A stretch of DNA of 64,000 bases from an uncultured Gammaproteobacteria bacterium (GTDB lineage: Bacteria > Pseudomonadota > Gammaproteobacteria > Pseudomonadales > Pseudohongiellaceae): positions 1 to 64,000 of the forward strand of contig CAIOZF010000146.1 in the NCBI GenBank assembly GCA_903862645.1, written 5' to 3'. Positions within the stretch are counted from its first letter, which is position 1; each line of letters starts with the position of its first letter. The position numbers and the translations under genes are program-made. Positions 5,687 through 61,526 of the stretch are shown here, in pieces. The notes beneath the pieces were generated by a model. That model ran no database searches, had not been told where the DNA came from, and worked only from the letters and a program-made list of their open reading frames with translations.

Positions 5687-5752
5687 TGCGGGAATGATCC
5701 GAGACGGCGACTACCTGACTTCGCAGGACAGTCGCCGCTTCCTGCCGGCATG

Positions 5753-5790
5753 GAAATAAAAAAAGGGCCAAAAGGCCCTTTTTTTATTTC
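5753..5790. terminator. Bidirectional intrinsic terminator between ilvC and ilvH
   Basis: A perfect inverted repeat (5753-5769 against 5774-5790, AAAA loop) has a GGGCC/GGCCC core flanked by A7 and T7, so it gives a hairpin plus U-tract on both strands. It serves the convergent ilvC and ilvIH transcripts. A second stem without a U-tract (CGGCGACT 5705-5712 with AGTCGCCG 5730-5737, inner CCTG/CAGG) lies just before it on the ilvC side. Confidence 0.9.
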
Positions 5791-5807
5791 AGCACTATGC
5801 AGCCAAC

Positions 5808-6299
5808 TCACACGTTCAACACTTTCTCGCCCCTGGAGATACCAGACACTCCGGTTCGCGCCACTTCAAGCACCGTAGTACCGCTTATCGCAGCAAGGAA
5901 ACTATCAAGCTTTTCAGAGGTACCCACCAGCTGAATGGTGTAAATGGTATTCGTCACATCCACGATCTGACCACGGAATATATCCGTGGTACGTTTGACT
6001 TCATCACGCTGAGCACCCGTTGCCTTAACTTTGATCAGCATCAACTCCCTTTCGATGTGCGCGCCCTCGGTCAGATCCACCAGTTTGACCACATCAATCA
6101 GTTTGTTGAGGTGCTTGGTGATTTGCTCAATCTTGCGGTCGTCACCGATGGTCGTAATTGTCAAACGTGACAACGTTTGATCATCAGTCGGGGCTACGGT
6201 CAAAGACTCGATGTTGTAATTGCGCTGGGAGAACAAACCGACCACTCGTGACAAGGCACCAGGCTGGTTCTCCAGCAGAATCGAAATAATGTGCCTCAT
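5808..6299 (-). CDS. ilvH: Acetolactate synthase small (regulatory) subunit
   Basis: The regulatory subunit activates IlvI and confers valine feedback inhibition. The N-terminal ACT domain begins MRHIISILLENQPGALSRVV and contains the valine-site region (RNYNIESLTV, about residues 27-36). The length of 163 residues is standard. It starts one base after the ilvI stop, so the pair is an operon. Confidence 0.96.
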   Translation of the reverse strand: MRHIISILLENQPGALSRVVGLFSQRNYNIESLTVAPTDDQTLSRLTITTIGDDRKIEQITKHLNKLIDVVKLVDLTEGAHIERELMLIKVKATGAQRDEVKRTTDIFRGQIVDVTNTIYTIQLVGTSEKLDSFLAAISGTTVLEVARTGVSGISRGEKVLNV

Positions 6300-16583: not shown

Positions 16584-16713
16584 ACACTCCCCACTGCCCG
16601 CACGGCATTGATGGCTATTGTCAAACAAGTGCGATATTGTCCGACAAACAATCCGCATAAGCAAAACGCAATTCGTCTGGAACAGCATCCCTCGAGTCAG
16701 TAAAACTTCGCAG

Positions 16714-18345
16714 ATGATGGAAGCAAGCACACAGCCAGATCAGAACCTCCGGGTCCTGCAAATATTCAATGCCTATCGAGTCATTCTGGTTCTGGTCCTG
16801 CTGCTCACCTTCCAGTCCAGCCCCAATACGACCCAACTGGGCGTTCATGACCCGGATCTGTTCATGGATATCCTGCTCGGTTACGGCTTTTTCAGCCTCG
16901 CCGTCATTGTCCTCACCCGGCCGGTTCAAAATGCCAAGGCACATCAGAACCTGCTAAGCTCGCTGTTGATCGTCGACATTCTGGCTGTAGCTCTTATCAC
17001 CTACAGTTGCAGCGGCATGGTCAGCGGTCTCGGCCTGCTGCATCTGGTGACCATAGCAGCCGGCAGCATCATCATCATCGGCAGAATGAGTACCTTTCTG
17101 GCTGCCATCGCCAGCATCGCTACGATCTATGCAGAGGTCTATCTCAGTTTCAGCAGGGACATGGTGAACAACCAATATATGCAGGCCGGTCTGTTGGGGG
17201 TTCTGCTGTTCACCACCTCGCTGTTTCTCCAATCCCTGAGCCAGAAGATGCGACGCAGTGCTGTGCTCGCCTTAGAGCTAGCAACCAACATCGTCAACCT
17301 GGAACAGCTCAATCAGCTAGTAATACAGCGGATGCGCACAGGGATTGTGGTTGTGGATGCCAATGCCCACATTCTGACCGCAAACGATGTGGCCATTCGC
17401 CTGCTTGAACTCAGCGATGCAGGGGAAGGCAAATCCTCTAAGGCAAAACCACCAAAACTGCGAGGGCTACCGCAGATACTCGAAGAACACCTCTCGTCCT
17501 GGCGTCAGCGGCCCAACCGCCGGATACCGACCTTCGCCACCAGCAATGCAGCGCCACAACTGCAGGCCAACTTCGCCTACCTGAATCCGACCACCGATTC
17601 CAACATTCTGATCTTTCTGGAGGACAGCACCCAGATCATTCAACGGGTCAGGCAAATGAATTTGATATCTCTCGGGCGGCTGACAGCCAGCATCGCCCAT
17701 GAAATCCGCAACCCGCTTGGCGCCATCAGTCACGCCAGTCAGCTGCTGCAGGAAGCCGACGGGATAAGGGACGCTGATCGGCGTCTGCTGGAGATCATTC
17801 TTAATCACTGCAGTAGAGTGAATCTGATCATCGAAGATGTCCTGCACATGTCGCGACACAAACAGGACAGCAGCGACAGGGTCAATCTGCACGATTGGCT
17901 GACACGCTTTGTGGAAACTTATTGTGAGACTCATCAGGTCAGTGGCAACGTCACTGTTGACATTCGCCCGCGCGACACCGAGGTGCGTGTCATCGTCAGC
18001 CAGCTCGAACAGATTCTCACCAATCTAATGGAGAACGGCTTGCGTTACAGTGAGCAGGCTACCGGCAGCGCCACACTCACGCTCATGGGCGGGCTAAGCG
18101 TCAAGGGCGAAGGATCGACTCCCGTGCTGCATGTGATTGATGAGGGTCCAGGCGTGCCGCCGGAGTCAGAGGAGCATCTCTTTGAGCCGTTCTACACGAC
18201 CGATCCGAAGGGCACAGGGCTGGGACTTTATATCTCCAAGGAACTGTGCGAAGCTAATCAGGCACGGCTTTCCTACCGCAGAGACACCGAAGGCAAGAGC
18301 TGCTTCAGCATCCATTTCTCGCACCCCGACAGAAATATGGATTGA
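16714..18345 (+). CDS. pilS: Type IV pilus sensor histidine kinase PilS
   Basis: PilS senses PilA in the membrane and phosphorylates PilR. About six membrane segments occupy the N-terminal half, then a PAS-like linker, then HisKA with the phospho-acceptor His at about residue 329 (TASIAHEIRNPLG), N-box NLMENGLRYSEQ and G-boxes DEGPGVPPE and GTGLGLYISKEL. The frame opens upstream at 16618; ATG 16714 or 16717 is the likely start, though no strong ribosome site is visible. The protein appears intact, in contrast to its partner pilR 38 bases downstream. Confidence 0.88.
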   Translation: MMEASTQPDQNLRVLQIFNAYRVILVLVLLLTFQSSPNTTQLGVHDPDLFMDILLGYGFFSLAVIVLTRPVQNAKAHQNLLSSLLIVDILAVALITYSCSGMVSGLGLLHLVTIAAGSIIIIGRMSTFLAAIASIATIYAEVYLSFSRDMVNNQYMQAGLLGVLLFTTSLFLQSLSQKMRRSAVLALELATNIVNLEQLNQLVIQRMRTGIVVVDANAHILTANDVAIRLLELSDAGEGKSSKAKPPKLRGLPQILEEHLSSWRQRPNRRIPTFATSNAAPQLQANFAYLNPTTDSNILIFLEDSTQIIQRVRQMNLISLGRLTASIAHEIRNPLGAISHASQLLQEADGIRDADRRLLEIILNHCSRVNLIIEDVLHMSRHKQDSSDRVNLHDWLTRFVETYCETHQVSGNVTVDIRPRDTEVRVIVSQLEQILTNLMENGLRYSEQATGSATLTLMGGLSVKGEGSTPVLHVIDEGPGVPPESEEHLFEPFYTTDPKGTGLGLYISKELCEANQARLSYRRDTEGKSCFSIHFSHPDRNMD

Positions 18346-59204: not shown

Positions 59205-60485
59205 TTACTGCCGGATATGCCCATCACCGAGGACGATGTATTTCTGGGACGTCAGCCCCTCCAGTCCGACTGGACCGCGCGCATGCAGTTTGTCGGTTGA
59301 AATGCCGATCTCTGCCCCCAGCCCGTATTCAAAGCCGTCGGCAAATCGCGTCGAGGCGTTGACCATCACAGAACTGGAATCCACTTCGCGCAGGAAACGC
59401 TGAGCACGCCCGATATCTTCAGTGATGATCGCTTCGGTGTGCGCAGAACTGTAACGGGCTATGTGCGCCATCGCCTCATCCAGATCAGCAACCACGCGAA
59501 TCGATAGGATGGGAGCAAGATACTCGGTACCCCAATCTTCTTCGCTGGCCGGCAGTACATCATCGAGCAACGCCATGGTCTTCGCGCAGCCCCGCATTTC
59601 TACTCCAGCAGCACGATACGCAACGGCCAGTCTCGGCAATACAGTGGCGGCCACCGCTTCTGCCACCAGCAAGGACTCCATGGTGTTGCAGGTACCATAA
59701 CGATGAGTCTTGGCATTCACGGCGACCTTGACCGCTTTGTCCATATCCGCACGGTCATCAATATAAACGTGGCAATTGCCATCGAGGTGTTTGATCACTG
59801 GCACTCGCGCTTCGTTGCTGATGCGCTCGACAAGGGACTTGCCACCGCGTGGGACGATCACATCCACATAGGCAGGCATGGTAATGAGCCTGCCGACCGC
59901 CGCTCTATCCGTCGTCGCTACCACCTGCACGGCGTGCTCGCTGATGCCGGACACACGCAGGCCCTCGGCGATACAGAAAGCGATCGCCTGGTTGGAATGA
60001 ATAGCCTCCGAACCGCCGCGCAGAATCACCGCGTTGCCGGACTTCAGGCACAAACTCGCCGCCTCACACGTCACATTCGGGCGTGATTCATAAATGATGC
60101 CGACTACACCCAATGGCACACGCATCTTGCCGACCTGAATTCCAGACGGGCGAAAACGCATGTCGGTGATCTCACCAACGGGGTCCGGCAAATCGGCGAC
60201 CTGACGCAGCCCCTCGATCATGCCGTCGATGCGACTCGGAGTCAGCTCAAGCCGATCCAGCATCGCGGCATCAAGACCCTTCTCACGGCCAGCCGCTAGA
60301 TCACGCTGATTCGCGAGAGCGAGCTGGCCCCGGTGCCGCTGAATACTTTCAGCCATGGCCAGCAACGCTGCATTTTTCTGCGCCGTGGTCGCCCGCGCCG
60401 TAACGCGTGCCGCAGCCCGAGCCTGTTGGCCGAGCGTGGTCATATAGGTCGCGATGTCAGTGTCACTATCCAGATTTGTTGCCAT
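59205..60485 (-). CDS. proA: Gamma-glutamyl phosphate reductase
   Basis: Second step of proline synthesis. [37 protein letters not shown] and [11 protein letters not shown] with the catalytic Cys are present. 426 residues. It is preceded by a TATAAT promoter and followed 12 bases later by nadD. Confidence 0.97.
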
Positions 60486-60549: not shown

Positions 60550-60579
60550 ATTATAGCCTCGCTGCGGGGGCACAGACAA
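60550..60579 (-). promoter_or_regulatory. Candidate proA promoter
   Basis: -35 TTGTCT (60574-60579), 18-base spacer, perfect -10 TATAAT (60550-60555) and a GCGCCCC discriminator. It resembles the other TATAATGCGC promoters of this window (rRNA, rluD). Confidence 0.55.
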
Positions 60580-60597
60580 AATATAAAGGGCACGACA

Positions 60598-60996
60598 TCA
60601 AATATCGTTTTGCAGGCTCATTTCGGCAGGATATGGCCGCATGTTCCAGGAATCCCGGATTTAGTCATTGGGGTTACGGCGAAAATGGTGAGTGAGCAGA
60701 GTGATGGGCACGAACAGGGGGACCTGGCCGCGCAGGTATTGGCCGATGGATTCGCTGAGTTCGGCCTTGTCGTCCGCATCCAGCTGATGCTTCAGATACC
60801 CTTGCATGTGCTGCAGCACGGAGTCGCCCAGGCGACCCTCCTTCTCAACAGGCAGATCGGGGAAATTCTTCATGAGCGTCTTCTCGATATAGGAATCCAG
60901 TTGATGCTGGCCATCGAAGCGCACCTTCTCGCCGAGCAAGCAACTACTCATACCTACTGGAATCCGGACCGCTTCTACTGTCGCCACTGTTGTCAC
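60598..60996 (-). pseudogene. Collapsed DUF523-DUF1722 (YbgA/TudS-like fusion) gene
   Basis: Family members are about 310-320 residues: a DUF523 domain (2-thiouracil desulfurase-like) fused to DUF1722. Here an open frame holds the DUF523 start (VGMSSCLLGEKVRFDGQHQ), then jumps to FPDLPVEKEGRLGDSVL from the domain junction, then to HMQGYLKHQLDADDKAELSE of late DUF1722. Two in-frame deletions of about 100 and 70 residues are implied. TAA at 60661-60663 falls at a Tyr position; beyond it the frame continues IRDSWNMRPYPAEMSLQNDI to TGA 60598-60600, a normal family ending. Almost certainly nonfunctional. Confidence 0.75.
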
Positions 60997-61031: not shown

Positions 61032-61526
61032 TTATGGAACTACTGTGTTGCTCATCTGATTGGGCTCGCTGGCCCAGTACTCCACAATCTTGTCTACCTC
61101 GGCACGGAATGCCGGGGCGTAGTTCTCGCGGGATGAGGCCCAGAGGTCACGTATGCTCTTGACGCGCATGCTGCTGCGCCAGCGATCCATGCGTGGCTCA
61201 AACTCCGTTCGATCAAACAGCCCCTGCTGGAACTGATAGTAAGAGTTCTCCCACTCCCGCCAGTTACCCGCCATAAAGTAAGCTTGCATGACTCTCTCGC
61301 CTGGCTCCAGCGGCACGCCGGCGTTGACCTTGGCAATCGTCATCGCGAGAGCCATCTCATTGGTGACCCATTCCGAGAACATCATCTGTTTTGCCGAGAT
61401 GGAGTCACGCGTCTGCGAGCGCATCATGTTCGTATTCTGCCGCACCTCCATGCCCAGAAATATAATGCCCATGATGACAGCGATGCTAGACAGCAGGTTC
61501 ATCCAGTCACTAACTTTAGTTCCCAT
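61032..61526 (-). CDS. Hypothetical single-pass membrane protein
   Basis: A 164-residue protein with one N-terminal helix (LLSSIAVIMGIIFLGMEV) then RQNTNMMRSQTRDSISAKQM and a Trp/Tyr-rich helical domain. It belongs to a group of N-terminally anchored proteins with RQNTxxxR found in many marine bacteria, of unknown function. No partner is evident; it sits between the broken YbgA-like gene and a GIY-YIG gene. Confidence 0.65.
   Translation of the reverse strand: MGTKVSDWMNLLSSIAVIMGIIFLGMEVRQNTNMMRSQTRDSISAKQMMFSEWVTNEMALAMTIAKVNAGVPLEPGERVMQAYFMAGNWREWENSYYQFQQGLFDRTEFEPRMDRWRSSMRVKSIRDLWASSRENYAPAFRAEVDKIVEYWASEPNQMSNTVVP

Follow-up and report, generated by a model that had tools for sequence, protein, structure and literature searches.

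A rudS pseudogene, probably young, in an uncultured gammaproteobacterium with a wrecked thiI gene

The 4-thiouridine (s4U) of tRNA is made by ThiI, and TudS (DUF523) is known as a 2-thiouracil desulfurase. In Jamontas et al. 2024 (PMC11417400), RudS is described as a fusion of TudS with DUF1722 that acts as a tRNA s4U desulfidase: three cysteines of the TudS part hold a [4Fe-4S] cluster, DUF1722 binds the tRNA, and single cysteine substitutions mostly abolish activity. The same authors define RudS as TudS followed by DUF1722, each aligned over more than 80 residues, report that ThiI is encoded in 94% of the species with DUF1722, which is the published co-occurrence link, and list E. coli YbgA (Table 1) as a stand-alone DUF1722 protein and not a fusion. 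The name 'YbgA-type fusion', used for full-length relatives in the original prediction, is given up here in favor of the current names, TudS for DUF523 and RudS for the fusion.

The locus lies in the window, a stretch of 64,000 nucleotides (positions 1 to 64,000 of contig CAIOZF010000146.1, assembly GCA_903862645.1) from an uncultured member of the Pseudohongiellaceae. The window's own genome, here called G000, is a 3.1-Mb draft in 254 contigs, and the genomes compared with it all appear to be drafts as well. On the minus strand, a GTG-started frame of 111 codons occupies 60661..60996 and ends in a TAA (60661..60663), past which 20 further codons, reading IRDSWNMRPYPAEMSLQNDI, lead to the old TGA, the second stop of the frame (tail and stop, 60598..60660). 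The original prediction had seen here a single frame made up of three family segments and, beyond a stop at a Tyr position, a typical family tail, and both observations are confirmed by Pfam and by alignment to six intact relatives. In the five relatives with which the tail was compared, the position of the TAA is occupied by Tyr (G009, G011, G010, and G005) or by His (G013). A residual start of the TudS domain (Pfam 2-thiour_desulf; 60862..60957, minus strand), which holds the first of the three cluster cysteines and ends near the first of two deletions, matches profile positions 1-32 of 141 (E 1e-5; 26 bits, below the cut-off of 34.7). The residual second half of DUF1722 (60628..60822, minus strand) matches positions 53-104 of 117 within the 111-residue ORF (E 2.9e-15) and, when the TAA is read through, extends to the profile end at 117 (67.2 bits). 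Actual read-through of the TAA was considered and rejected, as there is no support for it. The locus is the sole copy of either domain in G000. A PDB sequence search with the 111-residue product returned only weak bacterioferritin matches (E 0.55-0.66), which were taken as chance, and the window holds no tRNA gene.

When the frame is aligned with full-length relatives, as the original prediction had proposed, two deletions, of 300 and 267 bp, appear against each of six intact relatives; both lengths are divisible by 3, and 100 and 89 codons, respectively, are gone. At deletion 1, which fuses ...EKTL to MKNF..., the direct repeat reaches at most 6 nt; it is ACGCT, with both copies reading ACGCTG in G005, and is shorter or less perfect in other relatives. 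At deletion 2, which fuses ...VL to QH..., it measures 3-7 nt, with both copies reading GTGCTGC in G008, G006, and G007 and 3-4 nt in others. The short repeats for which a search at the junctions had been suggested are thus present, as measured for the G000 gene. Because the two copies of each repeat share one codon register (TL/TL, VL/VL), the frame survived both deletions. That a frame should be kept through two deletions had been judged unusual; the keeping of the frame stands, but it is less odd than supposed, since the chance of both deletions staying in frame is about 1 in 9 and the repeats are in register. Deletion between short direct repeats is an ordinary route of pseudogene decay in bacteria, and the G000 copy fits it in its junction repeats, in its nonsense codon, and in the differing wrecks of its sister species. 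It departs from this pattern in the frame kept at both junctions, which is read as a coincidence of repeat register.

The intact members of the genus agree with RudS in domain order and length. The G000 copy shares with RudS the motif of the first cluster cysteine and the C-terminal half of DUF1722, but it lacks 189 codons, including those for two of the three cluster cysteines, and has a premature stop. The two lost cysteines, those of FCPE and SPSCGM, fall inside deletion 1, so that the first (SSCLLG) alone remains of the three required for a functional RudS, as assigned by position against Table 1 of PMC11417400. Neither domain is aligned over more than 80 residues (TudS 1-32; DUF1722 53-104, or 53-117 when read through). 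With TudS itself the copy has in common the N-terminal 32 profile positions, but not a complete catalytic domain or a score above the Pfam cut-off. With YbgA it has in common the DUF1722 family; YbgA has no TudS part, whereas the G000 copy has DUF1722 positions 53-117 only, beside a TudS stub. Its remaining segments are homologous to rudS and lie at the same site upstream of proA as the eight intact genes, its lesions remove function, and no intact copy exists elsewhere in the genome. The G000 rudS is a pseudogene and not a minimised protein.

A rudS gene or remnant is found directly upstream of proA in all 14 genomes of the genus. In eight of these, rudS is intact, aligning without gaps among the eight and measuring 310 residues from the IPVG motif on, in line with the full length of about 310-320 residues that had been predicted. 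In a midpoint-rooted proA tree, G000 groups with G009, G011, and G013, and rudS is wrecked in all four. In G009, three different pieces survive, their frames changed, and the final stop codon is missing; G011 and G013 retain about the last 33 codons only; none of the three shares the junctions of G000. Outside this clade, what is left of rudS in G002 is a frameshifted tail; the G004 gene is full-length but interrupted by a TAG, and Arg replaces its first cluster Cys. Five nonsynonymous and three synonymous codon differences separate the tails of G011 and G013, about what neutral decay without selection would be expected to give. The tails of G000 and G009 differ by 11 synonymous and three other changes, one of which is the stop. 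Since these differences are mostly synonymous, the comparison suggests that rudS still worked after the split of G000 and G009 and would have been lost separately in the two, common early inactivation being the alternative.

Selection was also examined along the G000 branch. Among 88 positions that are invariant in the eight intact relatives, nine are changed in G000, versus zero to four of 88-92 in each intact relative when scored at positions invariant in the other seven intact genes. Two of the nine (K to R, H to N) occur throughout the sister clade and may have a cause other than decay. In a codon model, omega on the G000 branch is 0.05, which is not significantly higher than the background of 0.027 (p 0.19) and far below 1 (p 8e-8), with synonymous sites saturated (branch length about 3). 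The retained pieces look as if they had been constrained for most of the branch. From this, the loss in G000 is read as probably recent, weak ongoing constraint being another possible reading.

The writer of the modification has fared similarly. The G000 copy of thiI, still in its native position next to glnA (contig C158, about 16700-17700; 5739-6285 of locus L136; minus strand), is a wreck of which about the C-terminal 200 residues are left, interrupted by stops and frame changes. The retained C-terminal piece is presumably rhodanese-like. A functional, rhodanese-only remnant of ThiI was considered, against which stand the stops and frame changes around that piece and the state of G008 and G004, where almost the whole of thiI is missing and thiC is kept. 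In five of the 14 genomes of the genus (G000, G009, G002, G008, and G004), thiI is wrecked or gone beside glnA, and in the other nine it is intact, scoring over the family cut-off and carrying no stops. The wrecks differ: thiI survives in G009 as at least five separate pieces and in G002 as pieces of the C-terminal half, G008 has the first 23 codons only, and beside glnA in G004 no coding part of thiI was found.

Before the fate of the two genes is considered together, other explanations of the collapsed frame must be weighed. The original prediction had offered a choice between decay and a protein first minimised and afterward interrupted by a stop. The latter would be a useful product made of a TudS stub and half of DUF1722, for example, a tRNA-binding peptide of 111 residues; the divisibility of both deletions by three, the GTG-started frame that is still open, and the low omega would all fit it. 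However, relatives with the same short form, which the original prediction had named as grounds for abandoning its account, are found neither among the other 13 genomes of the genus nor elsewhere among 137 genomes of the family (96 with DUF1722). The arrangement is likewise seen in none of 28 loci drawn from 84,980 species genomes, all of which have full-length homology, one (L050) being broken by a stop. Furthermore, otherwise invariant positions are changed, the stop cuts off the family tail, only one of the three cysteines that would hold the Fe-S cluster is left, and the sister genomes carry different wrecks. Decay is thus the part of the choice that holds, and the minimised protein is very improbable. 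Equally improbable is an artefact of assembly, in which a mis-joined or consensus-damaged contig would make an intact gene look collapsed. G000 is, to be sure, a draft of 254 contigs, but an artefact is made unlikely by the two clean junctions at direct repeats, by the nonsense change, by the similarly wrecked thiI elsewhere in the genome, and by the other kinds of wreck that this locus shows in the sister genomes. Both explanations were rejected.

A further proposal, which is compatible with decay, is that the 3' end of rudS has been kept as part of the regulatory region of the next gene. Downstream of the remnant lies an intact aldehyde-dehydrogenase-family gene (Pfam Aldedh; 59205..60485, minus strand), which we take to be proA and which was used for the tree of the genus. 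Between the two is a sigma-70-like promoter (TTGTCT-18-TATAAT; 60550..60579, minus strand), whose TATAAT and upstream TTTGTC are kept in all 14 genomes of the genus. In favor of such a role, none of the five remnants in the genus has lost the rudS 3' end or the downstream TATAAT, and the last codons, N-D-I, are identical in nucleotides across the eight intact genes. However, synonymous sites are invariant in these last three codons only. Over the last 12 codons, the mean difference is 0.44 versus 0.56 for the rest, and three of 182 windows, this one included, are as low. The G011 and G013 tails also accept five nonsynonymous changes, and any deletion running longer would take out the promoter, which suffices to account for the points at which the deletions end. 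A regulatory role for the 3' end is considered unlikely. On the other side of the remnant, an ORF of 164 residues (61032..61526, minus strand), whose Pfam matches are all below the cut-off, is matched by a homologous frame at the corresponding site in G009, G011, and G013, and G002 seems to keep its end only.

Within the genus, rudS is unbroken in seven of the nine genomes with thiI versus one of the five without it (G008). The exceptions that keep thiI without rudS, G011 and G013, are sisters. In 57 relatives, with G000 and G009 scored as lacking rudS and G004 as having it though broken, 34 have both genes, three have rudS only (G004, G008, G051), four have thiI only (G011, G013, G015, G018), and 16 have neither (Fisher p 6e-8, in a test that ignores kinship). 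Outside the genus alone, the corresponding numbers are 27, one, two, and 13. These counts agree with the link between RudS and ThiI given in PMC11417400. The coupling is nevertheless loose, because G011 and G013 have lost rudS while keeping thiI and G008 has an intact rudS without thiI. When genome size is adjusted for completeness, the five genomes without thiI are the smallest in the genus, at 2.89-3.26 versus 3.27-3.80 Mb (U = 0, p 0.003), where the sizes of the relatives are rounded to 0.1 Mb and the separation of G006 hinges on a correction for 76% completeness. G000, at 3.26 Mb, adjoins the smallest genome that keeps thiI (3.27 Mb).

Taken together, these results make it very likely that the window holds a young rudS pseudogene, and that rudS turned dispensable when s4U was abandoned in the tRNA of this lineage, the pair of writer and eraser being dismantled alongside a modest reduction of the genome. 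As sequence comparison shows, two deletions between short direct repeats removed 100 and 89 codons with the frame kept, and a Tyr codon became TAA. As thiI is also wrecked at its native site, cells of the G000 lineage would be without s4U, and rudS would have been left dispensable. In other members of the genus, the pair is dismantled in part or whole by different lesions. The correlation with genome size is observed, and genome reduction is the putative cause of the loss. In one clade, the eraser would lose its use once the writer was gone; in the other, the eraser may have been lost first or independently.

A more detailed history can be drawn on the proA tree, and we regard its chances as evenly balanced. 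In it, thiI was lost at least four times (in G000; in G009; in G004; and in G002/G008), and the decay of rudS, in almost the same set of genomes, accompanies genome reduction. One clade would show loss of the writer before that of the eraser, with G008 (thiI gone, rudS intact), G004 (thiI gone, rudS with a stop and a Cys-to-Arg change), and G002 (both gone) as stages. If so, these staged losses are a natural experiment indicating that RudS is of little use without s4U in living cells. As a gene, the G000 copy is an ordinary pseudogene of a known family, and its value is comparative. With both partners lost repeatedly and in stages among close relatives, the genus offers a direct test of whether RudS has a role apart from s4U, and it also allows one to ask what a bacterium gains or pays by dropping a widespread tRNA modification. 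No earlier report of rudS pseudogenes was found in a literature search of titles and abstract openings with partial coverage.

Two simple causes of the loss were also considered. A thiamine need behind the loss of thiI was rejected: thiC scores over its cut-off in 12 of the 14 genomes, is partial in G006, and is missing in G002 (86% complete), and it does not track thiI. Life in the dark was rejected as well, since the photolyase-type domain FAD_binding_7 is present in all 14 genomes (in G002 as a partial match only, to a second type that G008 also has), and the repair of light damage seems to be kept. Because thiC and photolyase are kept almost throughout, neither thiamine need nor dark life explains the loss simply.

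Some minor observations were made along the way. In G024, of another genus of the family (g5), thiI is split over several frames (L151, contig C64:481-1876, minus strand) and DUF1722 was not found, a possible case of co-loss. In G009, proA occurs twice, whole on C193 (L109) and cut by a contig end beside the rudS wreck on C201 (L108), which points to a split or mixed assembly. The search of the family also listed short or partial DUF1722 frames in G126, G103, G063, and G089 and at a second place in G107; those of G126 (C23:34647-34997, 146 residues) and G103 (C28:45904-46254, 279 residues) have a full DUF1722 in a short frame and are either stand-alone DUF1722 genes or broken rudS. Finally, a rudS frame of 353 residues in a metagenome-assembled genome titled 'Klebsiella pneumoniae' (L034, CAMCRC010000091.1) matches that of G008; it seems to belong to the present genus, and the label looks wrong.
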